A DNA stretch of 64,000 bases from Natronospira proteinivora (GTDB taxonomy: Bacteria; Pseudomonadota; Gammaproteobacteria; Natronospirales; Natronospiraceae), in the NCBI RefSeq assembly GCF_024170465.1, contig NZ_JALJYF010000002.1, forward strand, positions 372,001 through 436,000. The letters are read 5' to 3'. A model generated the notes under the pieces. The model saw only the letters and a program-made list of their open reading frames with translations, was not told the DNA's origin and ran no database searches. The position numbers and the translations under genes are program-made. Numbering within the stretch: the first letter of the stretch is position 1; every line of letters starts with the position of its first letter. Positions 2,827 through 52,517 of this stretch are shown in pieces.

Positions 2827-2870
2827 AAAGAATTTGGCACGATTCAAAACAAGCCATCTCTCAAAACAAG

Positions 2871-2895
2871 CTACCTGGGCAATCCGAACGAAGCC
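2871..2895. repeat. Fragment of the outer end of the 520-bp inverted-repeat element
   Basis: CTACCTGGGCAATCCGAACG followed by AAGCC closely matches the sequence leading into the element at 39230-39253, and a weaker match precedes the element at 25992. No other part of the element is present here. Confidence 0.45.
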
Positions 2896-2945
2896 GATAT
2901 AGGAATATAAATTGTCGATTTGATGGATAACTGATCGACTGAAAA

Positions 2946-2979
2946 CAAAAAAAGCCCGCCTTGAAAACAAGGACGGGCT
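2946..2979 (-). terminator. Rho-independent terminator of the 12.7-3.0 kb operon
   Basis: Read on the minus strand, a stem AGCCCGTCCTTG/CAAGGCGGGCT (one bulge, TTTT loop) is followed by a run of seven T. It lies 27 bp beyond the lipoprotein stop codon. Confidence 0.85.
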
Positions 2980-3005
2980 CATTGATACGTCTATAATCTG
3001 AACTG

Positions 3006-3497
3006 CTATTCGGCCAGGTAAGCACGCACTGTTTCATCCTCCAAAGCCTCGATCACAGCCAGAGCGATAGTGCCATTAAGGACCCGGTAAATCACTCCCG
3101 GACTGCCATTGCGCCGCTCGAAACTCACCTGTTCCCCGTTACCCAACTCCAGCTCCACACTAACCCGCCCTTCCATATAGGCAATACGGTTAGCCAGGTT
3201 CATATCGGTAACACGGACCATGATGTGCTTGTCAGCACCACCATCCCCATTATGATGACGATCGATCTCCTGGCCCATCTGCTCAGCGAATTGCTCACTG
3301 ATCTGCTGTAGATCGGCATCCAGATTGGTAATGCGAATGGGATGGGGTTCATCATAAGCGGAACGGACACTGACCTCCCCATTCACCTGAAAACTCGATA
3401 CCCGGTCTTCATTGAGCGGATATTCATCGGCCACATAGGTACCCCCACAGGCCTGCAGCAGAAAAGCAGCAAACACCACGAAACTGAGTTTTTTCAT
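3006..3497 (-). CDS. Hypothetical lipoprotein
   Basis: A 163-residue protein with a lipoprotein signal peptide and lipobox LLQAC (Cys17), so it should be lipid-anchored to the outer or inner membrane. The mature part alternates short beta-rich stretches and ends with IEALEDETVRAYLAE. I do not recognise a family. It is the last gene of a probable operon: 43 bp after the HExxH/propeller/barrel gene and just before a strong terminator. The start ATG has a GGGAGA site. A part in envelope assembly or in anchoring the upstream protein is possible but unproven. Confidence 0.75.
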   Translation of the reverse strand: MKKLSFVVFAAFLLQACGGTYVADEYPLNEDRVSSFQVNGEVSVRSAYDEPHPIRITNLDADLQQISEQFAEQMGQEIDRHHNGDGGADKHIMVRVTDMNLANRIAYMEGRVSVELELGNGEQVSFERRNGSPGVIYRVLNGTIALAVIEALEDETVRAYLAE

Positions 3498-3540
3498 TTT
3501 TTATCTCCCTTGGATTGATTTAACTGCCAACAGGCAGGCA

Positions 3541-6435: not shown

Positions 6436-7805
6436 ATTGTTTCTCCTTTTTCCAGGCCAATAACCCGATGCAGATATCCCGCTTCCCCGGGCTTCTGGAA
6501 AGCGGAAACGGAAAACACGATCTCGCTGGCCGATGGTTCCGGGTTGCTCACCAGGATGTCCTGGGCCTGGAGGCGCACCCCGGCCAGGTCCAGGGAACTG
6601 CGCCCGGTATCGATCACCGGCTCGCCCTGAAGCCGACCGGCCGTGACACTGACACGGCTGTTTCGGGCAAGCACTGCAGGCTCGTCCTCCGATTCCCTGA
6701 CAATGGCGGAGGCGTGAATTTTCACCCGGGAATCGCGAATCTCCAATGAGCGAGCGGAGACCCGATCCAGCACCACCGAATCACAGTCTTCAATCACCAC
6801 ATGGCGATAGGCCCCGCTCAATCGCCAGCCCGACTCACCCTGACACACCGCATCCCGGCGACCCGCCCCCACTGGTGGCCGCACTGCTTCGCCATGGCGG
6901 ATCGGACGGTCCAGGGCCTCGATCAGGCTGCGATTGAAACGCTGCGGGGTTTCCCGCATGGGCATATGGCCGGCATCATCAAAGACCGTGAGACTACCCT
7001 GGGGCAGACGGGCCGCCAGCAATTGCCCCGTTCGCAGGGGGGCAGTGGCATCATCCACGCCCCAATAGACGGCAGTGGGCGCGCTTACCTGATCCAGGGT
7101 TTCACTGAAATCCGTGCTCACCAATGCCAGGGCCGCTATGCGCTCCGGATCCCCTCTCAATATCAGTCGCCTGAGCAACTGACTGCCCAATACCCGCTCC
7201 CCTCCCGGGGCCCGACGGACGAATTTGCGAATGGCCTTACCCAGTACCGGGTGAACGGTATCCGCCCGCTCTCCATCATAAGGCCCGCCCCCGGCCAGGA
7301 ATTCGGTATAACTGGCCTGATGGAGAATACCCGCCACACTTACCAAATGCAGACGATGGACCTGCTCTGGATAGCGAGCCGCATAGCGGAGTGCAACTGC
7401 ACCGCCCAGGGAGTGACCGATCAGAATCACCGGCTCATCGGTGAATTCCTCAATTACATGCTGAAGCACTTCGGCGTAGGCATCCTGGCTGTACAGGCGA
7501 TTGCCCCCCGCCGAATCACCGAAGCCCGGCAGATCCATGGCCAGCAGAAAATAGTCATCCCTCAACGGCGGTACCAGGGCATTCCATGCTGTGACGGAAT
7601 CACCGCCAATACCATGAACCAGGACCACGGGATGCCCACCTTCCTTGCCACCGTGATACACGGTGACATGCTCACCCAGAACCGGATCAGGCAGACGGGT
7701 TTTCTCGAGACCAGGCAAGGCATGCACCGGCACAACCATGAGCAGCAGCAAGAGGAACAGACCCCGACTCAGCCATCCACAAGCCCGCTTTCTATCAGCC
7801 CGCAT
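6432..7805 (-). CDS. Exported alpha/beta hydrolase with C-terminal beta-helix-like extension
   Basis: A 457-residue protein with a signal peptide (about 1-29). The hydrolase core spans about 45-305: VLVHGIGGDS (oxyanion region), GHSLGG with Ser132, Asp in YWGVDDATAP and His in DDAGHMPMRE. After it comes an unusual tail of about 150 residues (CDSVVLDRVSARSLEIRDSR and following) with short repeated strands resembling a small right-handed parallel beta-helix. Hydrolase alone is a safe call; substrate and the role of the tail are unknown. It overlaps the next gene by 4 bp, so translation is probably coupled. Confidence 0.8.
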   Translation of the reverse strand: MRADRKRACGWLSRGLFLLLLLMVVPVHALPGLEKTRLPDPVLGEHVTVYHGGKEGGHPVVLVHGIGGDSVTAWNALVPPLRDDYFLLAMDLPGFGDSAGGNRLYSQDAYAEVLQHVIEEFTDEPVILIGHSLGGAVALRYAARYPEQVHRLHLVSVAGILHQASYTEFLAGGGPYDGERADTVHPVLGKAIRKFVRRAPGGERVLGSQLLRRLILRGDPERIAALALVSTDFSETLDQVSAPTAVYWGVDDATAPLRTGQLLAARLPQGSLTVFDDAGHMPMRETPQRFNRSLIEALDRPIRHGEAVRPPVGAGRRDAVCQGESGWRLSGAYRHVVIEDCDSVVLDRVSARSLEIRDSRVKIHASAIVRESEDEPAVLARNSRVSVTAGRLQGEPVIDTGRSSLDLAGVRLQAQDILVSNPEPSASEIVFSVSAFQKPGEAGYLHRVIGLEKGETM

Positions 7806-7823
7806 GCCGCTTCCCTTATTTAG

Positions 7824-9179
7824 CTAGAAGGTATAGGAACTGGAAAGAAAGATGGTGATGTTCTCGGCCACCATTGTCTGGGGCTCGTTGCCGGCAGGCA
7901 GTACCTGCCCCTCGCCGCGTCCCCGGGAATAGCTGAAACCAAGATCCAGGGAAGAGTTGCGGGTGAAACGGGCCAGGCTGGCCGAAATACCGTAGAGATT
8001 GACATGATCATGGGCCACCACGTCCGAGGATGTATTGGCCCGATTGGTGAAAACCCCGCTTCGCACTGCCCATTGATTATTCAGGTAGTACTCGCTACCC
8101 AATGCGATATTCCAGGTGCCTTCCACATCCCGCCCATCCACACCCCGGACCACATCAGTATGGGCAGTGTGATAACTGATATCGGCAGACAGCAGAAAGC
8201 GGGGGCTGTGGAACCAAGCCGCGCCCAGGCGAATCTCCACCGGGTGATCCCGCCGAATATCATCACTGAGTTCCACATAATCGATATCCCCTTCCGGGCA
8301 AAGAGCGCTGTCCGATATCGAAGAACCATGGCAGGTGAAGAAAAGGTAATTCTCCGCGCTCGCCACATTGGCCTGTCGAATACTGGCACCCAGAGCCAGC
8401 CGATCATCAGGCTCCCACATGATGCCAATCACTGGCTTGATGCCCCACTCGTCGTTCTGGGTTTGCACGTATCGCCATTCGATATCTGAATCACCCGCCC
8501 CTGGGCCACTGCCAGCATCCAGCACAATCAACTGATTGTTGATCTCTTCCTGCTCCCGAAAGTGGAAATACAGACTGACCCCCACCGACAACTGGTCATT
8601 CACTTGCCAGGCATAGGAGGGGCCCAGCTTGTAGACCGATTGATTGTCATTGAGATTAATGGTGAAGCGTTCACGATTCTCCACATCCAGAAAGGTCTGG
8701 TCCTGATCCTCCTGGATGGAGTCGGTCACCACATAGGAAAAACCCAGCACCCCCGGGCCCACCGGCTGAGTAATACCGAAGAAGTTGGGAATGAGCGTGC
8801 CGGACTCCCGGTTCCAGTCACGTCCATCGCCCAGCACGTCTTCGTAAGTCACCCGGGTCCGGTGCCAGGCATTGACGCTGCCGGACAGATTCAACTCGCT
8901 GGCATGCACGATCCCCGCCGGATTGTGATACAAGCCCGAGGGATCGTCGGAGATGGCCGTGTAGGCGCCTCCCATGGCAGAGGCCCGGGTGCCGATAAGA
9001 ATATCCCGGTAATGGTATTCATCCGCCACGGCCGCGCCGGCCAGGGAGGTGGCCGCCAGCAATATAAGCGGCCGGGCCAGGCCCCGCCACTTGTTGCGAT
9101 GGTTGATGGGCCCCTGCCGGACGGCCTCAGGGCACATGGCGCTGGAATCGTGCTGCTCGACGTTGCCGGTCTGCTTCAC
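7824..9179 (-). CDS. Outer-membrane transport protein, OMPP1/FadL-like
   Basis: A 451-residue predicted outer-membrane beta-barrel. The mature N-terminus (ASAMGGAYTAISDDPSGLYH, then NPAG) is the hallmark hatch region of the FadL/TodX family, which passes hydrophobic molecules across the outer membrane. The protein ends in a strand with terminal Phe (SSSYTF). The GTG at 9179 follows GAGGAGG inside the upstream M48 gene, giving a 53-bp overlap but a signal peptide with a long n-region of about 35 residues. A later ATG at 9137 is possible but has no clear ribosome-binding site. Operon context suggests the cargo relates to the adjacent hydrolase. Confidence 0.8.
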   Translation of the reverse strand: MKQTGNVEQHDSSAMCPEAVRQGPINHRNKWRGLARPLILLAATSLAGAAVADEYHYRDILIGTRASAMGGAYTAISDDPSGLYHNPAGIVHASELNLSGSVNAWHRTRVTYEDVLGDGRDWNRESGTLIPNFFGITQPVGPGVLGFSYVVTDSIQEDQDQTFLDVENRERFTINLNDNQSVYKLGPSYAWQVNDQLSVGVSLYFHFREQEEINNQLIVLDAGSGPGAGDSDIEWRYVQTQNDEWGIKPVIGIMWEPDDRLALGASIRQANVASAENYLFFTCHGSSISDSALCPEGDIDYVELSDDIRRDHPVEIRLGAAWFHSPRFLLSADISYHTAHTDVVRGVDGRDVEGTWNIALGSEYYLNNQWAVRSGVFTNRANTSSDVVAHDHVNLYGISASLARFTRNSSLDLGFSYSRGRGEGQVLPAGNEPQTMVAENITIFLSSSYTF

Positions 9180-9963
9180 TCAAACCCTCCTCGTCCAATT
9201 GCCGGCTTAGCCGGGACAGTCGCTCACTGGCCGCCGGGTGGGTGCTGGAGACCTCATCCAATGCGCGTCCATTATCTTTCTCAGACATTCGCTCCAGAAA
9301 ACGGGACAGGCCCTGTGGATCATAACCGGCCCGGGCCGCCAGGCGCACTGCCATGGCATCGGCCTGAAATTCATCGTCCCTTTGCAGGCCCTCCTCGAAC
9401 AGTACTTCCACCACCTGCTCCACGGTCTGGCTGAAAAAGACCTGGGCCGCTTCCCCGGCCCCGCCAAAGAAGCGGGTCAGGCCTGCCATGGGAGAGCTTT
9501 CCGGCGCCCGAATGCCCAGGGCATTGACGATGTGCCGGGCATCCACGTGGGCGATTTCATGGGCCAGCACCCCCACCAGCTCGGCTTCATCCTCCATCAG
9601 GGCCAAGGCCCCTGCGGTCACGAAGACATAGCCACCGGGGGCGGCATAAGCGTTGATCTGTTCGGAATCCAGCACGGCAAAATAGAAATCCAGGGCCGGA
9701 CGCTCGCCATGCATGGACAGGCCTCGTCCCACCAGATTCACGTAACGCTGCAACTCGGCATCCGGATGCAGTTCATGGCGAGCCAGAATCCTTGCCGCCA
9801 CTTCCCGGCCCACGCGGATTTCGGCCCGCTCATTGGCTTCGGCGGCCTGAACCGGCTGAATCTGATGGAGTCGCGCCCGGGCCGGATGCTCCGCAGCCAG
9901 CCACTGCGGGGCCAGCAGGCTCAGACACAGCAGAATGAATCCGGCGCCGCGCAATCGCCCCAT
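9127..9963 (-). CDS. Periplasmic M48 family metalloprotease
   Basis: A 278-residue exported zinc protease (signal peptide about 1-24). HEIAHVDARH supplies the HExxH zinc ligands, and the third ligand Glu is in the region FEEGLQRDDEFQADAMAVRLA. It lacks the TPR tail of BepA, so it is closer in size to LoiP/YcaL-type proteases, which act in outer-membrane protein quality control. It begins 2 bp after the SH3 gene and overlaps the FadL-like gene by 53 bp, suggesting coupled translation. A role in maturing the neighbouring outer-membrane proteins is an inference. Confidence 0.88.
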   Translation of the reverse strand: MGRLRGAGFILLCLSLLAPQWLAAEHPARARLHQIQPVQAAEANERAEIRVGREVAARILARHELHPDAELQRYVNLVGRGLSMHGERPALDFYFAVLDSEQINAYAAPGGYVFVTAGALALMEDEAELVGVLAHEIAHVDARHIVNALGIRAPESSPMAGLTRFFGGAGEAAQVFFSQTVEQVVEVLFEEGLQRDDEFQADAMAVRLAARAGYDPQGLSRFLERMSEKDNGRALDEVSSTHPAASERLSRLSRQLDEEGLSEADRQRRAARFQRHVP

Positions 9964-9965
9964 GG

Positions 9966-10475
9966 CTAGCGTTCCTCTTCTTCTTCGCTCATGAACTGCA
10001 GGGCCTCTTCCGGGCTGGCGCCCAGCTCTTCCATCCGACGCAGGGCCTCGATATTAAGATTGGGATCATCCAGCAGACGCTCATCCTCCTCAACACCCCG
10101 GATGGCGCCAGCCGTGGTCACCGCGGAAGCCCGCCGGCGGGCGCTGGATTCCAGTTCAGCCGCTTCATCCACATGGCTTTCCCGGCCCGTGGGCGGGGTA
10201 TCCCGCAGCACCATGGCCGGCATCCAGCCCTCCAGCTCTTCAACCCGGATTCTCTGCCAGCCATCCTCCTCGGCCAGCACCCGGACTTCCAGTCCCTGGG
10301 CCAGTCGAGCCACCGGGTCTCCCCCGAAGCTGGGGTCTTCAAAAAGGGCGGCCCCCTGGGTTTGCACGTAGACCGTCCCGTCCTCGGACGCCGCGACCGT
10401 TTCCGCCATCAGCGGCTTGAACGGCAAAGCGGCCAGTACCAGGCCAGCCATCAAACAGAATCTCATCCCCATCAT
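9966..10475 (-). CDS. Exported SH3-domain protein
   Basis: A 169-residue protein with a signal peptide (about 1-24) and a bacterial SH3-like domain at about 30-90 (VYVQTQGAALFEDPSFGGDP, then WQRIRVEELEGWMP). The C-terminal half is helical and highly acidic, ending in a run of Glu. Bacterial SH3 domains commonly bind cell-wall peptides or protein partners. It sits between the CHASE2 cyclase (13 bp upstream) and the M48 protease (2 bp downstream) in the same operon and could be an adaptor for the protease. Two adjacent ATG codons at 10475 and 10472 follow GGGAG; either could be used. Confidence 0.75.
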   Translation of the reverse strand: MMGMRFCLMAGLVLAALPFKPLMAETVAASEDGTVYVQTQGAALFEDPSFGGDPVARLAQGLEVRVLAEEDGWQRIRVEELEGWMPAMVLRDTPPTGRESHVDEAAELESSARRRASAVTTAGAIRGVEEDERLLDDPNLNIEALRRMEELGASPEEALQFMSEEEEER

Positions 10476-10488
10476 TCATCTCCCTAGA

Positions 10489-12666
10489 TCACTTGCTGTC
10501 CAGACCGTGGACACCCTGCCAGTCGTCACTCACACCACTACGGGCGTAAGCCCGGCATCGTTCAACAAAGACGGCCCTGACCGGGTCCCCTTCCGGCAGG
10601 GCCTGGAATGCGACCAATGCCTCATCCCATTGCCGGGCCTCATAACAGGCCCAGGCGGCTTCCGTGGTCTGACGAATCGCCATGGCCTGCTGTCGCCATT
10701 CCGGGCCATCCTCGGGCCCCGCCAGGGGGCGCCAGACCGCCACTGACTGCTGTTTGCCCTTGACCCGCACCCGGTCCACCAAAGCGCAGATCACCTCCTG
10801 TGACAGGGCGCGATAGGTGATATCCGATATCAACAAGGGGCAACCATAGTGACTGGTCAACCCCTCGATGCGGGAAGCCAGGTTCACATTGTCACCAATC
10901 ACAGTGTAGTCAAGCTTTCGATCGGAACCGATATTCCCCAGCACCACTCGTCCACTATGCAGGCCGATACCGGTCCGCAGCAGGGGCTGGCCTTCCGCCT
11001 CTAGTTCCTGGTTCAGGGCATCCACCTGCCGCTGCATGGCCAGGCCCGCCAACACCGCCCGGTCGGCATGATCCGCCACCCGGATAGGCGCCCCCCAAAA
11101 GGCCATGATGGCGTCACCAATGAACTTGTCCAGGGTACCGTCGTGATCAAAGATGGCATCGCTCAGGCGGGACAGGTAACGATTAAGCAGTTCCACCACC
11201 TGGGCCGGAGGATAGCTTTCGGAGATACCGGTGAATCCTCGAATATCGGAGAACAGGATGGTCATTTCCTCATCCGTGCCCACCTCGGCGCTGATGTGAT
11301 CCTCGTAACGATCCACCACCTCGGCCAATACCGCCGGTGAGACATACTGAGAGAGCATGCGCCGCACCCGTCGTCGGTCACGCCCCTCGGTGGCGGAGAC
11401 GTAGGCCATGCAGAACAGGCCGCTGAAGGCGAGACCCGCCACCGGCGCCACCAGATCCACCAGGTAATGCTGGCCAAAGGCCCAGAAGGCAAACCCCACA
11501 TGGGCCACCATCAGGGCCAGGGGTAAAAGCGACTGGCGATAAACCCGGCTCATGAGAAAACCCAGGGCAGTGAGCAGAGACAAGGCCATGATCAACACCG
11601 GCGTGAACCAGACCGGCATGGGCCGCAGATAATCTCCTTTAAGGAGATTACTGGCGGCGGTCAGGTGAATTTCCACCCCGGGCGTTCGACTGTCCATGGG
11701 CGTGTGCTTGATATCGTGTAGCCCAATGGCCGAACCGCCAATAAACACGATCTTGTCTTCGAACTCCTCCGGCTGAACCAGCATGCGATCCGCTTCACCC
11801 CGAAGCAGTGCGGAACGGCTCTGAATCAGTCCGGAAAAGGAAAAAGCCGGCACATCTCCATAAAAGTTGGCATGCAGACGGCTTTCCCCGTCCACGGGCA
11901 ATACCTGCCCGTTCATGTGAAGGGCCTGATCGCCTTGCTGCAGGACCTCGGGAGCCAGCTGCTCATGCAAAGCGGTGGTGGACAAACCGGGCAGGACCGC
12001 GTCCTGATAGACGAAAAAGGGACTGACCCGGCGATAAACCCCGTCGGCATCAGAATCCAGGCCCACGCCGCCCAGGCCCGCCGACATCTGGGCGAGCTCA
12101 TCAAAGGGCAATAGATAACTGTTCCGCCCCAGATCCGGAAAACCCTCGGCCCGGCTCAGGGCATGGCGATTCACCACGAAATCCGGCAGGGCCTGAGCAC
12201 GAACGGTATCGGCCTGCTCATCCGGAGACTCCCGGTGGACATGCAGGGCATGGTGGACATTGCCGGCGGCCGCCGTTTCCATGGCCAGGGCCTCGTCCTC
12301 CCGACTCAGCGCGTCACGGGCCTCATTGTCCAGCCACTGGTTCTCGCTGAACAGCACATCAAAGACCACCGCCCGGGGGTTGCCCTGGGCCAGGAATTCC
12401 AGCAGATCGGCATACACCGAGCGGGGCCAGGGAAAACGACCCAGCAGGGGGTTGAGCTGGGTGAGCGAGGTTTCATCAATGAGCACAAGCGCCAGATCCT
12501 CGTGAACCCGGGCCTCTGAACGCATGACCTGGGTACGGGCATCCTGGCTGATCCATTCCAGGCGCTGAAAACCGCCCGCCAGATGAATCAGCGTTACCAG
12601 CAATCCGGCCAGCAGTCCGATCAGGACCAGCCATCGCGCCTGCTTTTTGTGATGTGACCATTGCAT
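10489..12666 (-). CDS. CHASE2-domain class III adenylate cyclase
   Basis: A 725-residue membrane protein. A TM helix at about 12-30 is followed by an extracytoplasmic CHASE2 sensor (about 35-340) and three TM helices (about 352-425). A class III nucleotide cyclase domain follows (about 465-645). The metal-binding Asp residues are at 474 and 518 (FSDIRGFTG, DKFIGDAIMAFWG), and Asn595 and Arg599 of the transition-state pair are present. Lys514 and Thr588 (DYTVIGD) form the pair seen in adenylate-specific cyclases such as CyaB1, so the product should be cAMP. It heads a seven-gene operon and is divergent from a cyclic-nucleotide-binding EAL protein. The last 70 residues are helical. Confidence 0.9.
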   Translation of the reverse strand: MQWSHHKKQARWLVLIGLLAGLLVTLIHLAGGFQRLEWISQDARTQVMRSEARVHEDLALVLIDETSLTQLNPLLGRFPWPRSVYADLLEFLAQGNPRAVVFDVLFSENQWLDNEARDALSREDEALAMETAAAGNVHHALHVHRESPDEQADTVRAQALPDFVVNRHALSRAEGFPDLGRNSYLLPFDELAQMSAGLGGVGLDSDADGVYRRVSPFFVYQDAVLPGLSTTALHEQLAPEVLQQGDQALHMNGQVLPVDGESRLHANFYGDVPAFSFSGLIQSRSALLRGEADRMLVQPEEFEDKIVFIGGSAIGLHDIKHTPMDSRTPGVEIHLTAASNLLKGDYLRPMPVWFTPVLIMALSLLTALGFLMSRVYRQSLLPLALMVAHVGFAFWAFGQHYLVDLVAPVAGLAFSGLFCMAYVSATEGRDRRRVRRMLSQYVSPAVLAEVVDRYEDHISAEVGTDEEMTILFSDIRGFTGISESYPPAQVVELLNRYLSRLSDAIFDHDGTLDKFIGDAIMAFWGAPIRVADHADRAVLAGLAMQRQVDALNQELEAEGQPLLRTGIGLHSGRVVLGNIGSDRKLDYTVIGDNVNLASRIEGLTSHYGCPLLISDITYRALSQEVICALVDRVRVKGKQQSVAVWRPLAGPEDGPEWRQQAMAIRQTTEAAWACYEARQWDEALVAFQALPEGDPVRAVFVERCRAYARSGVSDDWQGVHGLDSK

Positions 12667-41580: not shown

Positions 41581-41793
41581 ATGCAAGAGGAACGATTGAC
41601 ACGACTGGAAGAGAAGCTGGCACACCAGGAAGCCCATATCCTCTCATTGAACGATACGCTCTATCAGCAGCAGACCGAGCTGGCGGCCCTGCGTCGGCGA
41701 CAGGAGGAACTGCTGGCGCAGGTGGAACAGCTCAGAAACCATCCAGGCACGGGCAGCGAAACCGGTGGCGAGCCGCCACCGCCCCACTACTGA
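41581..41793 (+). CDS. slyX: SlyX family protein
   Basis: A 70-residue coiled-coil protein: RLTRLEEKLAHQEAHILSLN and continuing heptads, then a Pro-rich end PPPPHY typical of SlyX. Its function is not firmly known. Its last 7 bp overlap the end of the convergent TPR diguanylate cyclase gene. Confidence 0.9.
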   Translation: MQEERLTRLEEKLAHQEAHILSLNDTLYQQQTELAALRRRQEELLAQVEQLRNHPGTGSETGGEPPPPHY

Positions 41794-43583
41794 TCCACGG
41801 GGTCGAGTCGCTCGTGATCGGCTTCCACCACCCGATCACGACCCGCCCCCTTGGCCTCATAGAGGGCCTCATCCGCCAGACGGTGCATGGCTCGCACACT
41901 CAGATCTTCACCGGCCTCAACCAGACCGAAGCTAAGGGTGATCTGCAATCGTTGGCCGTCATAGCTGAGCGGCTCCAGTTTTCGACGAAAACGGTGAATC
42001 CGGGCCAGCGTCCCTTCCCGGTTCCAAGCGGGCAGGGCCAGGGCAAACTCCTCGCCGCCGACCCGGCCAATCACGGCATCTTCACCGAAGACCCGGTGGA
42101 ACAGGGCCGCCACTTTGCGCAGGGCGCCATCCCCGGCGGCATGGCCGTGGGTATCGTTGAACTGCTTGAAATGGTCGATATCGGCCAGCACCAGGACAAA
42201 TCCCTGCTCATCGGCCCGGGCTTCATCCAGCGCCTGCTGGGCACAAGCAAAGAAATGACTGTGATTGAGCAGGCCGGTGAGACTGTCTCTTTCGGACAAG
42301 CGGCGAAAATGCCGGCGCTCGCGACTGGAGCGCATCAACAAGACAAAGAGCATGACACTGACCACCGCCGTGGCCGCATACCCCAGGCCCATGAACAACC
42401 GACGCTGTCGCTGGGTGGTAGCTTCCAGGTCGGCCACCCGGGCCTGCTCCCGAAGCAATTCCAGTTCCTGACGCTGGATCTCGGTTTCAAAGGCCGTGCG
42501 CAGGTAGGTCCGACGTAGATCCCGCTCGCGCTCCTCCCATTCAATGCGGATCTCGCGGGCACGGCGGTAATACTGGGCCGCGCTTTCATGATCCCGGCGG
42601 GCCTCGGCCAGCTCAGCCGCCGCAATCAGGGCCCGCTCCAAATCCATCAGATCCCCCCGGGCCTCCAGGGTCTCGATGGTGCCGTCCAGCAATCCTTCGG
42701 CTTTCTCCAGTTCGCCCATTTCAATCAGCATCTCAGCCCGGTCCAGATCCACAACGATCATGCCGCGGGCGAATCCCAATTCTCCAATCGCCTCCCGAGC
42801 CTGGGCCAGCACCACCAATGCCTGGGCCCACTCCCCGCGATCCCGGTATAACAGGCCCCGCTTGCGAATCATGGCGGCCCCGAAGAGTTCGTCATTGGCC
42901 GCTTCACAGGTCCGTTCCGCATCACTGATGGTGGCATGACGGGCGATCCAGCCTCGGGTTTCGGTCTCGGCATTGCTCAATCGTTCCAGCTCCACGCAGA
43001 GTTCTCGCCGGTTGCCGGTCTCTCGGGCCATGGCCACCGCCTGGTCACCAAAGCGGGTGGCCTGCTCATATTCCCCCATGCGGGTATAGATCATGGCCGC
43101 ATGACCATAGATTCGGGCGCGCGGGGCGGGGTCATCCACCACATCCAGCAAGTCCAGACCATGTCCGAGGTGCTCAAATGCCTTGGCATAGCGGCCAATA
43201 TTCATGGCCAGGTTGGCCGTCAGGGAATGCACATCAAGACGAAGGGCGTCCGTGGGAGCCTGCTCAAGCAGCTCTTCCAGCATTGCCAGACCACGGTCTT
43301 CATTCCCGCCGATGGCGGCGTTACGAGCGCGAATCAGCCCCGCCCGAACCTGCAAGGCCGGATCCGCCTCCGCCAATTGCGGGGCCAGGGCATCCAGGCG
43401 TTCCTCGGTGGCCTGCCAGTCTCCGGTCACGCTTTGCGCTTCCAGGGATGTCAGTTCCGCCTCCAGCGATTCGGCGGCAAGGCTTGGAAAGGAGACCACG
43501 GACAGCAAGAGGCCCAAAGTCATTACCTGCCAGGACTGGACGGCGATCTTCCGCCATCCCTGTGCGTTGCTTTCTGCCTGCAT
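41787..43583 (-). CDS. Envelope-spanning TPR diguanylate cyclase
   Basis: A 598-residue protein. A signal peptide (about 1-37) leads to a TPR-rich periplasmic region (about 40-385; GEYEQATRFGDQAVAMARET and similar repeats). One TM helix (397-417) and a cytoplasmic GGDEF domain follow, with GGEEF at 509-513. The inhibitory RxxD site is absent (GEDA at its position), so product inhibition is unlikely. It lies 84 bp downstream of the borosin-type methyltransferase gene on the same strand. Its domain plan mirrors that of the histidine kinase in the cluster: TPR outside, enzyme inside. It may share the same signal; this is inference. Confidence 0.88.
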   Translation of the reverse strand: MQAESNAQGWRKIAVQSWQVMTLGLLLSVVSFPSLAAESLEAELTSLEAQSVTGDWQATEERLDALAPQLAEADPALQVRAGLIRARNAAIGGNEDRGLAMLEELLEQAPTDALRLDVHSLTANLAMNIGRYAKAFEHLGHGLDLLDVVDDPAPRARIYGHAAMIYTRMGEYEQATRFGDQAVAMARETGNRRELCVELERLSNAETETRGWIARHATISDAERTCEAANDELFGAAMIRKRGLLYRDRGEWAQALVVLAQAREAIGELGFARGMIVVDLDRAEMLIEMGELEKAEGLLDGTIETLEARGDLMDLERALIAAAELAEARRDHESAAQYYRRAREIRIEWEERERDLRRTYLRTAFETEIQRQELELLREQARVADLEATTQRQRRLFMGLGYAATAVVSVMLFVLLMRSSRERRHFRRLSERDSLTGLLNHSHFFACAQQALDEARADEQGFVLVLADIDHFKQFNDTHGHAAGDGALRKVAALFHRVFGEDAVIGRVGGEEFALALPAWNREGTLARIHRFRRKLEPLSYDGQRLQITLSFGLVEAGEDLSVRAMHRLADEALYEAKGAGRDRVVEADHERLDPVDQ

Positions 43584-43667: not shown

Positions 43668-44486
43668 TCAGGAGACCCGGGCCGTCCCGGCCTCACACTT
43701 GAGGCTTTGCCGATCCTCCTCACCGGCCAGCGCCCGACGAACGGCCGGGTCTTTTGCCGGGGCATGGATCGGCGGAATCACCAGGGTGGTGTATTCCTGG
43801 TAGCGGGCCTGGGGCAAGGCCGCCAGCGTCATACGCTCCGCCCGGCAGGCCTCCAGCGGCAGCTGGGCGGCTTCATAGAGCAGCACGGGGGTGTCCGGCG
43901 GATACCAGCGTTCAAGCTTTTCAATCAGCAAAGACAAGCCGCGCGGATCGGCATGAAAACGTCGGCAGTCCAGATCCCCGGCCAAGGCCACCTGCCAGAG
44001 GATCAGCAATGCCGCAGGATTGATCACATGTTCATAGACCAGAAAATGGGTGGCTTCCAGTGACTGAACCCCATGGTTGCCCGGGTCCAGGCCCAAATCG
44101 GCGTAGAGGCAGGCCTCGGCGGAAATCCCCGGCAGCATGCGGGCCCGGTGACCCGCCGCCCGAGCCTCCCGGATAGCCCGGTGGGGCGCATCGGCAAACA
44201 CCCCCGGGTGGCCATAAAACACGGCACAGACCCGATACCCCTGATACACCGGGGCCATGATGGCGGCCTGCATCTCCCGATAGGTGTCACGACGATCCTT
44301 GTTCTCGCCGTAGTAATCGTTCAGAGGCCGCGTGTCGGGCCGATGCTGGCAGAGCCAGTCCAGCATATAGGCATCAGTGAGGCAAAAGACCACATCGGCG
44401 GCCTCGATCTCGGAGAGGGTCCGCTCACTGAGATCACGGCCCAGCTGTATACCACTGCCCACCACCACCAGCTCACCCGCTTTCAT
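43668..44486 (-). CDS. Borosin-type peptide backbone alpha-N-methyltransferase (SonM-like, split form)
   Basis: A 272-residue tetrapyrrole-methylase-fold, SAM-dependent enzyme. It starts GELVVVGSGIQLG, has YYGENKDRRDTYREM (58-72, the Tyr/Arg cluster that positions the peptide amide in borosin enzymes), then YGHPGVFA (91-98) and PGISAEACLYADLGLDPG (119-136). These match what I recall of SonM from Shewanella oneidensis far better than porphyrin or diphthine methylases. It should N-methylate backbone amides of a separate precursor, here probably 47520-47735. The ATG at 44486 follows AGGAG. The start overlaps the end of the kinase gene by 14 bp, so translation is probably coupled. Confidence 0.88.
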   Translation of the reverse strand: MKAGELVVVGSGIQLGRDLSERTLSEIEAADVVFCLTDAYMLDWLCQHRPDTRPLNDYYGENKDRRDTYREMQAAIMAPVYQGYRVCAVFYGHPGVFADAPHRAIREARAAGHRARMLPGISAEACLYADLGLDPGNHGVQSLEATHFLVYEHVINPAALLILWQVALAGDLDCRRFHADPRGLSLLIEKLERWYPPDTPVLLYEAAQLPLEACRAERMTLAALPQARYQEYTTLVIPPIHAPAKDPAVRRALAGEEDRQSLKCEAGTARVS

Positions 44487-47433
44487 CAAGGGCACTCCTG
44501 ATTCGTGACACCAGAGCCGGAAAGTCCACCGGCTTGACTTCATAAGCATCGCAGCCGGCATTCATGGCCGCCTCCCGGGTGGCCCGCGAGGCATCCGCCG
44601 ACACGGCAATGATGGGGATATGCCGAATGGAGCGATCCGCCCGAATCATGCGAACCGCCTCGATACCCGACAGCCGCGGCAGATTGAGGTCCATGAGGAT
44701 CAGATCCGGACAATGTGCCCGGGCCATGTCCAACCCCACCTGGCCATCCTCCGCCGCCAACAGATCAAAGCCCTCCATACCCAAATATTCCAGCATGAGC
44801 TCCCGGTTGATCCGATTATCCTCCACCACCAACAACCGGGGGCCCGCCGCCGATGCTGCCAGCCCCTGATTCGAATCACACTCGGCGGCCGCGAGCTCGG
44901 GGCTTCGGGGCAGGGTCACCACAAAATGACTGCCCTGCCCCGGCTGGCTGCTCACCGAGATTTCCCCGCCCAAGGCCTGGCAGAGACCCCGGGTTACCGA
45001 CAGACCCAGACCGGTGCCGGCGTAATGGCCCTGATGCTGATCATCCCCCCGGTGAAAGGCATCAAAGATCCGTTCCTGCTCGGATTCGGAAATGCCGATA
45101 CCGGTATCCCGCACCTGAAACTGAATGGTTTCCACCGCATCTGCTCGCCGATTGCCCGGCTGAACAAGCAACTCCACATGACCGCCACGGGTGAACTTGC
45201 CGGCATTGGACAGGAGATTGAACAGGATCTGGCGCAACTTGACCGGATCACTTTCCATTTCATCCAGCTGCGGATCACAGGACACATGCAGGCGATTACC
45301 ATTGTCCTCAAGCTGGGGCCGGACAATGGCGGCGGTGTCCTCGATAAATTCCTTGAGTACGATGGATTCGGTCTCTCCCGAGCGCCCCCCGCCCTCCACC
45401 GTGGAAAGTTCCATCAAACCCTCCAGCAAGGAGAGCAGGTGTTCCCCTGAGGATCGAATATGGTCCACGGCAGCAAGGCCATCCTGGGACGGTTCCCGGG
45501 CCAGTCCCCGCCCCAGTTTCTGGCTATAGCCGATGATGGCATGGAGCGGCGTGCGCAATTCATGGGAGATGCGGGAAAGAAACGCCGCTTTTTCCTGATT
45601 GGCCCGCTCGGCCTGTTCCGCGCCCCTTTCCAAGGCCGTGGCGGTGGCCCGAAGCTGCCCCATGGCCTGCTCGGCTCGATGTCGTTCACTGTTCAGATCT
45701 TCGGCCTGCTGGGAGCGGCTGAGCGCCGAGGCCACATGGCGACGTATCCGGCTCAATCGCTCCACGTCGGCCGGAGACAGTCGGGGACCTCGCCCCCCTT
45801 CACAGGCGAACAGCATCACCCCATCGATCTCATCCTCCCCCGGGATGGTCAGAGCCACCAGCGGCAGGCTCGACGGCCAGGGGTCCGACCCGGAAGGGGA
45901 GCCTTCCTGGGTGAAACCCTCGCAGTAATATAAGCCCTCGGCCAGGAATTCGGATGCCTCAAGCTGCTCCAGCAAGGCATGATCCGGCGCCGGGGTCGCT
46001 ACGATGGGCCGGGCCACGCTGCCGGCGTTAACCAACACTCGGAAACGCCGGTGCCGCCAATCCCGCACCAGCATTTCGCCATAATCCACCGTTACCATGG
46101 TATCCAGGGACCAGCGCAACAAGGGCGACAGGACCTCCTGCAGGGAATGTTGCTGGTTAATCCGGCGAATCAACTGCCCCAGGGTTTCCAGCTCCCGGTT
46201 ACGCCGCTCCACCGCGCGCTGCGTGCGGCGCTTGAGCCGGTAACGGTTGTAGATCAGCCCCGCTACCAGCAACAGGAAACCGCTACCCACCAGGGCCCGA
46301 TCACGCAGCAGGGCATCCCGGCGCCCCTCTTCTTCCAACAAGGCCAGGGTCTGCTCCTGGTTCAGTCGTTCAAACTGGGCCTGGTGGTAGGCGGCCTGGA
46401 TAGCGAGCTCCTGTTCCTTGCGCCGGTCCAGGGCGGCATCGGCGGCCTGCTGCCAGCCCAAAGCCTGGCGATAACGTCCCCGGGACTCGGACAGCCCGGA
46501 CAGCAATTCGCTGACCTCTTGCTGATTATGCCAGCGGCGCTGGACAGCCAGCCGTGGCAAGATATCCAGCAGCAATAGTTCCGCCTCATCGGCCATGTCA
46601 CTTGCCACCAAGACGCGGGCCAAAACCAAGCGTGTTTCCAGGATGCCGTCGGCAAAACCGGTGGCTTCCACCTCAGCCAGAGCCTGGCGAAGCGTCCCAA
46701 TGGCCTCATCCAGCCGCCCCTGCTGAAAGAGATATTTGCCAATCATCTGCCGCGCTACCGCCGCGAACACCGGAGAGCCGGCCTGCTGGCAAACCGACAG
46801 GGCTTCTCGGGCATCGGCCTCCAACATGGCAGGGGGATAAGACCTCTCCCGAGCGCCCGTTCGCTCCATCAGCGCATCACAGATGCGCTGACCATCGCCG
46901 CTTTGCCGAGCCGCCTCTACCGCCTGCTCGGAAAATTCCAGCGCCCGTCCATACTGGTCCAGGTTTCGATATAGAAAGGTGGCCCCGCCCATAAAATGGG
47001 ACCGGATAAAAGCATCCTCTACCTCGGCCAACAAGGCCTGTCCGGCCAACAGCTCGCGAAAGGCGTTCACATAATCGCCACGCATAATATTCAGCTGCAC
47101 CGACCGGCTATGAAGAAACACAGTCGTCGCTGGATCCAGTTCCCGTTCAAGAGCCCGCTTCAGCAGAACCAACCCTTCATCCACCTGGCCGGCCAAGGCC
47201 CGAACACGGGCCTCCATGCCGTCCAGATAGGACTGTTGCTGGGGAGATAATGACGGGTAGGTATGACGAAACTCATCAATCAGCACCTGGGCTTCCTGCC
47301 AGGGCACCGCATGGGTCAAGGCATCCAGTTCCTCAAGAGCCTGATCCAAGGTCTCATTCTCCTCCGCATTCAGCGGAGAAGAATAAGGCATCAAGAAAAG
47401 CAGCAGTACTGCCACCAGTATTAGGCGTATCAT
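44473..47433 (-). CDS. TPR-containing hybrid sensor histidine kinase
   Basis: A 986-residue protein: signal peptide (1-23), periplasmic TPR-like repeats (about 25-370), TM helix (381-397) and a GAF-like region (about 415-575). A HisKA domain follows with His624 in SRISHELRTP, then an ATPase domain (N-box LRQILFNLLSNAGKF, DTGIGIS, GTGLGLS) and a C-terminal receiver with Asp915 in LILMDLNLP. All phosphotransfer residues are present, but no separate response regulator or Hpt gene is nearby. It sits between the predicted borosin precursor and methyltransferase genes, so its periplasmic TPR part could sense the modified peptide; this is a hypothesis. Confidence 0.92.
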   Translation of the reverse strand: MIRLILVAVLLLFLMPYSSPLNAEENETLDQALEELDALTHAVPWQEAQVLIDEFRHTYPSLSPQQQSYLDGMEARVRALAGQVDEGLVLLKRALERELDPATTVFLHSRSVQLNIMRGDYVNAFRELLAGQALLAEVEDAFIRSHFMGGATFLYRNLDQYGRALEFSEQAVEAARQSGDGQRICDALMERTGARERSYPPAMLEADAREALSVCQQAGSPVFAAVARQMIGKYLFQQGRLDEAIGTLRQALAEVEATGFADGILETRLVLARVLVASDMADEAELLLLDILPRLAVQRRWHNQQEVSELLSGLSESRGRYRQALGWQQAADAALDRRKEQELAIQAAYHQAQFERLNQEQTLALLEEEGRRDALLRDRALVGSGFLLLVAGLIYNRYRLKRRTQRAVERRNRELETLGQLIRRINQQHSLQEVLSPLLRWSLDTMVTVDYGEMLVRDWRHRRFRVLVNAGSVARPIVATPAPDHALLEQLEASEFLAEGLYYCEGFTQEGSPSGSDPWPSSLPLVALTIPGEDEIDGVMLFACEGGRGPRLSPADVERLSRIRRHVASALSRSQQAEDLNSERHRAEQAMGQLRATATALERGAEQAERANQEKAAFLSRISHELRTPLHAIIGYSQKLGRGLAREPSQDGLAAVDHIRSSGEHLLSLLEGLMELSTVEGGGRSGETESIVLKEFIEDTAAIVRPQLEDNGNRLHVSCDPQLDEMESDPVKLRQILFNLLSNAGKFTRGGHVELLVQPGNRRADAVETIQFQVRDTGIGISESEQERIFDAFHRGDDQHQGHYAGTGLGLSVTRGLCQALGGEISVSSQPGQGSHFVVTLPRSPELAAAECDSNQGLAASAAGPRLLVVEDNRINRELMLEYLGMEGFDLLAAEDGQVGLDMARAHCPDLILMDLNLPRLSGIEAVRMIRADRSIRHIPIIAVSADASRATREAAMNAGCDAYEVKPVDFPALVSRIRSALDESG

Positions 47434-47519
47434 CCATGCACGCTCTCAATAATCCGAGGATCCCTCACTACAGCAGCCAGAGTCCGACAACGCAAGTCAG
47501 CGGATGGGGAAGGAATCAG

Positions 47520-47735
47520 CTATTCGTCATAGGAACTGACGGTAGTATTGCTCAGTGAGGCCGTCGTGCTACCGGATAGTGACTTGATCTTTTCAATATC
47601 CTGGTCCCGCAAGGCTTGACGTTCTTCTTCAGTGAGACGATAGCGCTCCATCACCGATTCCGGGTCTTCCTGGTAAGCCTTCTCGAGTTTCGCATCACTG
47701 CCCAGATCCCGCAGCAATTCATTCAATCCTGACAT
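47520..47735 (-). CDS. Predicted split-borosin precursor peptide (SonA-like)
   Basis: A 71-residue peptide. Residues 1-55 (beginning MSGLNELLRDLGSDAKLEKA, with DPESVMERYRLTEEE and IEKIKSLSG) follow the helical leader or borosin-binding domain of SonA-type precursors: MSGL, LG.DA.L, DPE.VM and K.LSG occur in the same order. The predicted core is STTASLSNTTVSSYDE, rich in Ser and Thr. In the family the partner enzyme methylates backbone amides in this tail. A strong AAGGAGAG site precedes the ATG. The kinase gene follows after 86 bp with no obvious terminator. No protease or exporter gene is adjacent on this strand. Confidence 0.85.
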   Translation of the reverse strand: MSGLNELLRDLGSDAKLEKAYQEDPESVMERYRLTEEERQALRDQDIEKIKSLSGSTTASLSNTTVSSYDE

Positions 47736-49315: not shown

Positions 49316-49388
49316 TAGCAAACCCGTGGCTGGATTAGAGCTGGGACTATTAAACGCAGAGAACCCAGAGAATCCGCCGCACGCCCTA

Positions 49389-49447
49389 TCGCGAATGAAT
49401 TCGCTCCTACGGAGATACCTCACCCGTAGGAGCGGATTCATCCGCGA
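49389..49447. repeat. REP pair (inverted)
   Basis: GAATGAATTCGCTCCTACGG and its inverted relative CCGTAGGAGCGGATTCATCC face each other with an 11-bp loop, between the MFS and carrier genes. It can fold as a long hairpin and may act as a terminator for these convergent genes. Confidence 0.9.
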
Positions 49448-49453
49448 TCCACG

Positions 49454-50860
49454 TCAGAACCCCGGCAGGACCGGGCCGAAGGTGACCGCCAGGATCAGGA
49501 CCACGGCGGCGGCGGCCAGCAGCTTGAGGAAAAGGGAAAAGGCGAACTTGAACCAGGCCCCGTAGGACACCCCGGCAATCCCCAGAATCCCCATCAGCAC
49601 CGCATTGGTGGGCACGATCATATTGGCGAAGCCATCACCGAACTGATAGGCCAGCACCGCCACCTGTCGGCTCACACCCACCAGATCCCCCACCGGCGCC
49701 ATCAAGGGCATGGTCACAAAGGCCTGGCCGGAGCCGGAGGGAATAAAGAGGTTCAAAATACTCTGGATGATGAGCATGCCCACCGCCGAGAACTGGGGCC
49801 AGAGATGGCTAAGCGGCTGGGACAGACCATGGACGATGGAATCCAGGATCTGGCCATCCTCCATGATCAAGGCGATACAGCGGGCAAAGCCCACCAGCAG
49901 GGCGGTGGTCACCAGCTCCATGGCCCCCTGAATGAAGCGGGCGGCGGCATCGTCGGCGCCGAGTCGGCCGACAATGGCTGAAGCGACGCCGAAGACCAAG
50001 AAGGCTGCCCCCATCTCCGACAACCACCAGCCCTGGCTGGCAATGCCCCAGACGGTCAGGCCGATGGTGGCCAGGAAGAGCAGCAGGATCAGGCGATGGC
50101 GCAGATTCAGCTGTGGGTATTCGGCCGGAGGCTCACCCTGTTCCGGCACTTCCAGGCCCTTGACCAGGGAACGATTGGGGTCGGCCTGGACCTGCATGGC
50201 ATAGCGATAGACGTGATGCACACCGATCAAGACAAAGGGAATCAATATCGCTGCCCGGAACCAGGCCGCCGAATAGATGGGCACCTCGGCAATGCTCTGG
50301 GCGATCACCACGGTAAAGGGATTGAACACCGCCACCCCGTAGCCGATCCCGTAACCGCAGATGGTCACCGCCACCGCGGTCATGGCATCCAGTCGCATGG
50401 CCCGGCACAGGGCCACCAGAATGAGGACAAAGGGTATGTACTCCCCGGCGGTGCCGATACTCCCCGAGGCCAGGGCAAAGCAGAAGATCACCATGAAGAT
50501 GAGCGTGCCGGGCTTGTCCCCGAAGCGCTCCAGCATTCGTCCGATCAGAGCATCCACCGTGCCCGTGGCCCGCACCACCGCCAGTACCCCGCCGATGATG
50601 AGCACGAAGAAGATAATGTCCTGGGCTGCGGCCATGGCCCGGGGAACGGCCACGAACATATCCCAGGGAGTGAGCACCTCCCGTTCGGCGGCCAGCTCGA
50701 AGGTGCCGGGCACCACCACCTCCAGCTCCTGGCCTTCCTCGGTGACCCGCGTCTCGCGCTCGAAATTCCCCTGGGGCACCACCCAGGTCAGCACCAGCGC
50801 AATGAAGATCATCACCGACAACAGCGTCAATGTATGCGGCACTCGCAGACGAAAACCCAT
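49454..50860 (-). CDS. YfcC/DcuC-type membrane carrier
   Basis: A 468-residue inner-membrane protein with 12 or more hydrophobic segments. PHTLTLLSVMIFIALVLTWV, then VPQGNF at the N-terminus and the re-entrant-like motif IPSGSGQAFVTMPLMAP, then GFANMIVPTNAVLMGILGIA, are typical of the C4-dicarboxylate anaerobic carrier/YfcC group of the ion-transporter superfamily. Probable substrates are dicarboxylates or basic amino acids; not resolvable here. The ATG at 50860 follows GGGAG; an in-frame start at 50908 lacks a good site. Confidence 0.85.
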   Translation of the reverse strand: MGFRLRVPHTLTLLSVMIFIALVLTWVVPQGNFERETRVTEEGQELEVVVPGTFELAAEREVLTPWDMFVAVPRAMAAAQDIIFFVLIIGGVLAVVRATGTVDALIGRMLERFGDKPGTLIFMVIFCFALASGSIGTAGEYIPFVLILVALCRAMRLDAMTAVAVTICGYGIGYGVAVFNPFTVVIAQSIAEVPIYSAAWFRAAILIPFVLIGVHHVYRYAMQVQADPNRSLVKGLEVPEQGEPPAEYPQLNLRHRLILLLFLATIGLTVWGIASQGWWLSEMGAAFLVFGVASAIVGRLGADDAAARFIQGAMELVTTALLVGFARCIALIMEDGQILDSIVHGLSQPLSHLWPQFSAVGMLIIQSILNLFIPSGSGQAFVTMPLMAPVGDLVGVSRQVAVLAYQFGDGFANMIVPTNAVLMGILGIAGVSYGAWFKFAFSLFLKLLAAAAVVLILAVTFGPVLPGF

Positions 50861-50915
50861 GACACACTCCCGAGATTCGAATGCGGGGCATTGTAGCGGA
50901 AGATTCAAAAGAACG

Positions 50916-50939
50916 CCGTAGGAGCGAATTCATTCGCGA
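50916..50939. repeat. REP copy upstream of the carrier gene
   Basis: CCGTAGGAGCGAATTCATTC followed by GCGA. Single copy, 16 bp downstream of the RAYT stop. Confidence 0.85.
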
Positions 50940-50954
50940 TCAACGAGACTTCTA

Positions 50955-51452
50955 TCATGGCTCCAAAGGTCTATCCTCGTCCCCGCCTTCCACCCATACC
51001 GCATCCCAATATGGCCATTGCCCAATATCCTCCACCAAGCCAGCCCGCAAAGGATTAGCGACGATGTAACGGGCCACCGCCCGAAGGTCCGGTTCTTCAC
51101 GAATGGCCCAGTCATGGAAGCCGGGCTGCCATAAGCGCCCCCGGCGACCGAGGTGCTTGTTGATACGGTAGCCGGAACGAGCCTTGACCTGCTTGACCAC
51201 ACCGGACAGGTCGTCAACCTGACCCAGGCGAATCAGCCAATGAAAATGATCCGGCATGATGACGTAGGTGATGGTGCGGGCCTTGCGTTCCTCCTGGACA
51301 AGCCGGAATTCATTCACGATCAGGCGGGCGGTAGCGAGGGTGTCGAGTATCGGGGCCCGCTGCCAGATGCAGGCGGTGATCATATAGACCTGTCCCGCCA
51401 AGGAGCAGCGGCCCTTGCGCAGGAGTCGGGCGCCTCCGAATGCCCTTTGCAT
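50955..51452 (-). CDS. REP-associated tyrosine transposase (RAYT)
   Basis: A 165-residue Y1/IS200-like HUH protein. The HUH pair is His69-Phe-His71 in VIMPDHFHWLIRL, and the catalytic Tyr129 is in AVARYIVANPLRAGLVE. RAYTs nick single-stranded REP palindromes and are domesticated rather than freely mobile. REP copies lie immediately on both sides (50916 and 51501-51611), the usual setting. The ATG follows GGAGG. The catalytic residues are intact, so it may still act on the REPs of this genome. Confidence 0.92.
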   Translation of the reverse strand: MQRAFGGARLLRKGRCSLAGQVYMITACIWQRAPILDTLATARLIVNEFRLVQEERKARTITYVIMPDHFHWLIRLGQVDDLSGVVKQVKARSGYRINKHLGRRGRLWQPGFHDWAIREEPDLRAVARYIVANPLRAGLVEDIGQWPYWDAVWVEGGDEDRPLEP

Positions 51453-51500
51453 GGTTCCCTCCTGGTTTTTTCGTCCTTGAAGTCTTTCCTGTGGATCGGA

Positions 51501-51611
51501 TCGCGAATGAATTCGCTCCTACGGTGTTGGTGCGGGCCTGGGGTCGCGGATGAATCCGCTCCTACGGTTATGCGCGATACCCCCAGCCCGTAGGAGCGGA
51601 TTTATCCGCGA
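51501..51611. repeat. Cluster of three REP copies between RAYT and radC
   Basis: Copies at 51501-51524, 51544-51567 (same orientation) and 51588-51611 (inverted) share the core CGCTCCTACGG or its complement. Confidence 0.9.
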
Positions 51612-51619
51612 CTGGCCCA

Positions 51620-52294
51620 CTACACCCACCCCCGCTCGGCAAAGGACACCACCGCCCCATCGCCGACAACGAAATGGTCGAGCACCCGGATATCCACCAG
51701 GCCCAGGGCCTCCTTCAGGCGATCGGTGATATGGCGGTCGGAACGGGAAGGCTCGGCTACGCCGGAGGGGTGATTGTGGGCGAGGATCACGGCGGCGGCA
51801 TTATGGGCGAGTGCGGCCTTGACCACTTCCCGGGGCGGGACAGCGGCGCCGTCGATGGTGCCGCGAAACAGTTCTTCAAAACGAATCACCCGGTGGCGGT
51901 TATCCAGGAAGATGCAGGCAAAGACCTCATGGGGCAAATCCCGCAGGCGGGCGGTGAGAAAACGTCGCACCCGGCCCGGGTCGGACAGTACCTCGCCGCG
52001 TTCCAATTCTTCATTGAGATGCCGCCGGGCCATTTCCACCACGGCCTGCAGCTGCGCATACTTGGCCTCGCCCATGCCCCGGCCCCGGCAAAAATCCTGC
52101 TTTGAGGCATTGAGCAGGGCCCGCAGGCTGCCGAACTGGGCCAGCAGATCCCGGGCCAGGTCCACGGCGGTCATGCCCGGCACGCCCGTTCGCAGAAAGA
52201 TGGCCAGCAGTTCGGCATCGGACAGGGCCTCGGGGCCGCGGGCCAGTAGTTTCTCCCTGGGTCGTTCTGCCACGGGCCAGGCGGTGATGGCCAT
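51620..52294 (-). CDS. radC: RadC family JAB-domain protein
   Basis: A 224-residue protein. An N-terminal helix-hairpin-helix-like part (about 1-95) precedes a JAB/MPN metalloprotease-like domain with the zinc motif HNHPSG (His173, His175) and Asp186. The name comes from an old repair phenotype; actual function is unproven. The length is that of E. coli RadC. The start ATG is at 52294. Confidence 0.93.
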
Positions 52295-52439
52295 GGTGTT
52301 TCCCCCCTCTCTTATGGTGTTTTTTGGGTGTTTTATCCGGGGGAGAACATCAAGGCAATGGCAGGACAGTGATTGTCAAAATATTCCGACAGGGAATGCC
52401 GGGGAAGGGGGCATGCTCTGCGTCATTGTTTGGTTTTGA

Positions 52440-52517
52440 TCGCGAATGAATTCGCGATTGGGTGGTAGCGGGTTCATTCGCGGCGGATAGGAATCGCGGA
52501 TAAATCCGCTCCTACGG
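52440..52517. repeat. Partial and full REP copies upstream of the ABC operon
   Basis: A truncated palindrome TCGCGAATGAATTCGCGA (52440-52457) and a full copy (52494-52517) ending CGCTCCTACGG. The rest of the gap 52295-52439 shows nothing recognisable. Confidence 0.8.

Follow-up and report, generated by a model that had tools for sequence, protein, structure and literature searches.

The window examined here, a 64,000-nucleotide stretch of the Natronospira proteinivora genome, carries on its minus strand four genes in the order precursor, kinase, methyltransferase, and TPR-GGDEF protein. The first (47520..47735) has an AGGAG sequence upstream and encodes a 71-aa SonA-like split-borosin precursor. 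Whereas such a gene is usually the immediate neighbour of the methyltransferase gene, this one is not; after a gap of 86 bp, a 2.96-kb gene on the same strand (44473..47433) encodes a 986-aa hybrid histidine kinase with Pfam HisKA, HATPase_c, Response_reg, and TPR domains. The 3′ end of the kinase gene shares 14 bp with the start of the gene for a 272-aa SonM-like backbone N-methyltransferase (43668..44486; TP_methylase PF00590, 4.6e-19). The start codon assigned to this gene, the ATG at 44486, is preceded by an AGGAG inside the kinase gene and agrees with the start of SonM. The same open reading frame also contains in-frame ATGs further upstream (44561). A 598-aa TPR-GGDEF diguanylate cyclase (41787..43583; GGDEF PF00990, 9.3e-34) is encoded from 84 bp past the methyltransferase. 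A promoter scan returned no sigma-70-like site. Open reading frames together with Pfam and PDB matches confirm the preliminary description of this locus, which had reported a 71-residue precursor, a SonM-like methyltransferase, a hybrid kinase between them, and the 14-bp overlap.

Comparison of both small proteins with SonM and SonA, proposed when the locus was first described, placed the methyltransferase with SonM (7ltc_A, 1.4e-68), followed by OphMA-type fungal enzymes (1e-36 to 1e-45), and residues 1–58 of the precursor with SonA (7ltc_B, 1.3e-10). The precursor also matches LigA (PF07746) at 3.8e-7, and consists of a borosin-binding domain (BBD, residues 1–54) followed by a linker and core tail (...STTASLSNTTVSSYDE). 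A clustering of the enzyme with cobalamin, siroheme, or diphthine methylases, named beforehand as the outcome that would contradict a borosin identity, was not observed, with no such enzyme among the 25 PDB matches at E≤1e-3, and the protein scores far under the cut-offs of the NCBIfam YabN and precorrin-3B models. We therefore reject an ordinary tetrapyrrole methylase, as the PDB matches are to borosin enzymes only. Residues Y59, R65, and Y69 of the methyltransferase correspond to Y58, R67, and Y71 of SonM and are invariant in 17 aligned relatives; in the SonM–SonA complex, Y58 and Y71 of SonM hydrogen-bond the substrate backbone (PMC8429565). Split borosins have been defined by the separate encoding of methyltransferase and precursor (PMC8429565), and the two are encoded here as separate open reading frames. 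Homology to SonM and SonA, the retained tyrosines and R65, a BBD with a C-terminal tail, and the position of SonM inside the methyltransferase tree make a strong case that the locus is a split borosin of the SonM–SonA kind, and bear out the identity originally proposed for it. No second SonM-like enzyme and no second BBD was found in the genome.

The kinase starts with a signal peptide, followed by a TPR domain predicted to be periplasmic, one transmembrane (TM) helix (approximately residues 380–395), HisKA, HATPase, and a receiver. As expected of a hybrid histidine kinase, it has its phospho-acceptor residues, H624 in HisKA and D915 in the receiver. The TPR-GGDEF protein is laid out in the same way, and its GGEEF motif is intact. 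In a tree of TPR domains, its TPR groups with those of the Natronospiraceae kinases (support 94/91). This topology is widely shared among sensors at such loci, where a hydrophobic N-terminus is predicted in 96/99 and a TM helix after the TPR in 88/99. The only residues invariant in 35 aligned TPR domains from these loci are two cysteines spaced 30 apart. In the kinase, they are C185 and C215, the only cysteines of the periplasmic part, and a disulfide between them is plausible.

A genome scan yielded 71 borosin loci, to which class and phylum searches added more. Loci were taken as SonM-type when the enzyme scored E<1e-80 with profiles built from the collected loci (n=89). In 86/89 of these loci, a TPR sensor from a single family is encoded on the same strand no more than 2.5 kb away; this count and those that follow take related loci one by one, and a few records repeat one genome. 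The three exceptions are two loci whose sequence ends at the methyltransferase (L043, L049) and one whose sensor is divergent (L118). At 41 loci, mostly from Lysobacterales such as Luteimonas, sensor and methyltransferase form a single open reading frame (TPR-TM-GGDEF-MT), and a fusion of this kind, TPR-GGDEF-MT, was confirmed with Pfam in L008. Other loci have a separate TPR-GGDEF gene (~33), a TPR-only protein (5, Kangiella group), or a kinase (7). Most of the inspected loci that lack a BBD match keep a small open reading frame between methyltransferase and sensor. No TPR neighbour accompanies the seven more distant borosin-like enzymes (L106–L111, L125). Linkage and fusion, which for evidence of this type are strong, make it likely that sensor and methyltransferase are functionally coupled.

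The C-terminus of the precursor is conserved across these loci. The tail of the window precursor is SLSNTTVSSYDE, while precursors of the fused clade most often read FATNHxIKAYDE. Near the C-terminus, the motif [ILVF]x[ASGCT][YH] occurs in 54/57 precursors of the group, which are related sequences, against 4.1 expected on shuffling. A defensive natural product would seldom have so conserved a core; it suits a signal with a receptor, although among related sequences it falls short of proof.

All four Natronospiraceae genomes examined (L077, L078, L079, and the window) have the order precursor, kinase, methyltransferase, with a TPR-TM-HK-REC sensor. The survey of other genomes for this order, which had been recommended, thus recovered it in three further members of the family, and this recurrence together with the TPR-sensor fusions elsewhere supports the earlier idea that peptide production is coupled to a sensor kinase. 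Locus L079 is arranged precursor-kinase-MT-precursor-kinase, and such a doubling of the precursor-kinase pair around one methyltransferase fits the pairing of a peptide with its receptor. In the TPR tree, the Natronospiraceae kinase TPRs sit within an 18-row clade with GGDEF sensors (100/99). Because the kinase TPRs nest inside those of GGDEF sensors, the kinase output probably replaced a GGDEF domain, and the window kinase represents one of the output forms taken by a family of sensors in which GGDEF is usual. A second kinase group (L105, L123, L124) has the order MT-precursor-TPR-HK, and the starred branches of the methyltransferase tree require the kinase label to have changed three or more times. 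L105 also contains a weak Hpt match, just under the Pfam cut-off.

The TPR domains at these loci stand apart from other TPRs in the same genomes. The top two matches to the TPR profile in the genome of the window, at 370 and 354 bits, both lie in the operon, with the TPR-GGDEF protein scoring highest, and the next reaches 108 bits. The best match to the family is at the borosin locus in 14/16 genomes. With five candidates per genome scored, the profile matches 3/369 genomes of the class at E≤1e-35, all three with a SonM-type locus. Most TPR-GGDEF proteins elsewhere in the same genomes are without the cysteine pair. TPR-GGDEF sensors are nevertheless widespread without borosin genes; this, like the absence of a TPR neighbour beside the distant borosin-like enzymes, counts against the signalling reading favoured below.

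We also looked to structure and co-variation for signs of peptide recognition. The kinase TPR domain was modelled as a superhelix (pLDDT 95.7), and Rap pheromone receptors head the list of its PDB matches (8rsv, 4gyo; E ~1e-7, TM ~0.63). An off-locus TPR-GGDEF protein used as a control had LGN as its best match and Rap scores equal to those of the sensor. The similarity to Rap therefore adds little, and its value as proof of a pheromone receptor is weakened. A viral fold search gave generic TPR matches. Distances among cores, TPRs, and methyltransferases all co-vary, and partial Mantel tests (0.20 for core and TPR given the methyltransferase; 0.34 for core and methyltransferase given the TPR) single out no core–TPR coupling and so do not discriminate. 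In the fused clade, helix A (groove) scores 2.44 bits vs 2.18 for helix B (p=0.004), a weak difference drawn from columns that are not independent.

What the sequences show directly is the gene order with its overlap, the conservation and the fusions, the swap of output domains, the topology signals, and the conserved core. From these we favour, with some reserve, a split-borosin signalling operon in which the sensor reads the methylated peptide or the status of its synthesis. Methylation, export, ligand identity, and signal direction would, we infer, be arranged as follows. By homology to the action of SonM on SonA, the methyltransferase would bind the BBD of the precursor and N-methylate backbone amides in the C-terminal core. 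The methylated peptide might then be processed and exported by general machinery. The kinase would act as the operon’s dedicated transmembrane sensor, with a periplasmic TPR, a single TM helix, and a cytoplasmic histidine kinase and receiver, and could detect either the methylated peptide or pathway status. Its signal may be passed on as a phosphorelay by the kinase and as c-di-GMP by the downstream GGDEF protein. Within this range we prefer a sensor that reads the peptide, since the TPR is predicted to be periplasmic, the core is conserved, and precursor and kinase are duplicated as a pair. The largest gap in a receptor role is that the cassette holds no dedicated exporter or protease that would bring the peptide to the periplasm; no conserved gene of either kind lies beside it, and an ABC-type gene alone was seen, in 9/43 loci, several of them syntenic. 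More tentatively, the loci could represent a Gram-negative peptide-pheromone system, in which a backbone-N-methylated ribosomal peptide is recognized by a transmembrane receptor with a periplasmic TPR and interchangeable outputs (c-di-GMP, phosphorelay, or none) and each precursor has its own receptor.

A sensor that does no more than control the methyltransferase would produce the same linkage. The chief rival to peptide sensing is a sensor that detects some other envelope signal and controls borosin production or methyltransferase activity, for example by membrane tethering or through a phosphorylated BBD-receiver competing for the enzyme. Such regulation would sit well with the 41 loci at which sensor and methyltransferase are fused, with the overlap of the kinase and methyltransferase genes, and with an extra BBD fused to a receiver domain in L077, a fusion that also counts in favour of a signalling operon. 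That BBD-receiver is, however, known from one metagenome-assembled genome only, and the duplicated precursor-kinase pairs of L079 and the conserved core fit ligand and receptor better. We regard this alternative as possible, if on the unlikely side.

It seems improbable that the locus is an ordinary borosin cluster of the antibiotic type whose two-component sensor is autoregulatory. Peptide-sensing kinases such as NisK of the nisin clusters are established within lanthipeptide RiPP operons, and the window likewise has a sensor kinase in a RiPP operon, although sensor domain, RiPP class, and phylum all differ. Against it, the core has stayed conserved from family to family instead of diversifying, immunity and export genes are not conserved, and the output is mostly GGDEF rather than a local response regulator. 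That a kinase gene was inserted into a borosin operon as a chance neighbour with no functional link is hardly credible and is rejected by the locus survey: sensors of the TPR-GGDEF and TPR-HK kinds are frequent in these genomes, but the linkage in 86/89 loci, the same-ORF fusions, and the standing of the locus TPRs as their own Cys-pair subfamily all oppose it.

Peptide sensing, the reading we prefer, can be set beside several described systems. SonM–SonA of Shewanella oneidensis (PMC8429565; PDB 7ltc) resembles the window in its separate methyltransferase and BBD precursor, in the substrate-contacting residues, and in sequence along the enzyme and across residues 1–58 of the precursor, and differs in that a hybrid kinase gene separates precursor and methyltransferase in the window; loci of the SonM branch (L114, L120, L121) are arranged MT-precursor-TPR-GGDEF, whereas the window is precursor-kinase-MT. 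A published borosin architecture includes a GGDEF domain, as named in a Figure 1 legend (PMC11395268). Going by that legend, it probably corresponds to the TPR-GGDEF-MT fusions found here, from which the window differs in having a histidine kinase and receiver as output, not fused to the enzyme. RRNPP/Rap receptors (8rsv, 4gyo) have a TPR superhelix in common with the window sensor, a fold match that is not specific. The cytoplasmic location typical of RRNPP receptors is not what is predicted for the window sensor, which has a hydrophobic segment before the TPR and a TM helix after it; the sensor is thus distinguished by its predicted periplasmic, membrane-anchored domain, its Cys pair, and its HK/GGDEF output. 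In Vibrio RcbB, a seven-repeat TPR precedes a GGDEF domain and represses the cyclase until a partner relieves the repression (PMC12282931). We liken the window sensor to RcbB by description, not by sequence, and no borosin genes are described for RcbB (PMC12282931).

Split borosins, a link between borosins and GGDEF, and TPR-restrained GGDEF proteins are thus already known. A literature search whose coverage did not include the main split-borosin survey (Imani 2022) found no description of the kinase form or of the family-wide sensor rule, and the priority of the kinase form is not established. Nor does the literature covered establish what bacterial split borosins do in nature. The near-constant tie of SonM-type enzymes to one TPR membrane-sensor subfamily, in which output domains are swapped and sensor and enzyme may share one open reading frame, gives these peptides a concrete, testable role, that of peptide signalling through c-di-GMP or a phosphorelay. 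Relatives have, in the place of the kinase, a sensor that makes c-di-GMP and shares its outer domain, often as one polypeptide with the enzyme, and this suggests that the peptides take part in signalling; if this is true, a backbone-methylated peptide would be added to the known bacterial signals.

Within the window, palindromic repeats of ~25 nt each (type CCGTAGGAGCG..TTCAT..CGCGA) span 49388-52517 and flank a Y1 (IS200-like) transposase (50955-51452, minus strand), an arrangement that looks like a REP/RAYT system.

In the Kangiella group (loci L064, L066, L067, L068, and L070), tandem TPR-only proteins adjoin the borosin genes, and the TPR-only proteins carry signal peptides without an output domain. 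Borosin-type TPR-GGDEF sensors bearing the Cys pair also occur apart from the methyltransferase locus (L143 in genome G578 and L144 in G706), and are possible orphan receptors.

Within the window's own family, locus L079 contains two precursor-kinase pairs that have a single methyltransferase in common (2866-10520). L077, another locus of this family, encodes on its minus strand an ORF (L077:5643-6182, equivalent to L045:1928-2467 in the Natronospira MAG record) whose first ~42 residues form a borosin-binding domain followed by a complete receiver domain. This gene adjoins regular precursor, kinase, and methyltransferase genes. Its product, found in one MAG only, is possibly a phospho-controlled competitor for the methyltransferase.
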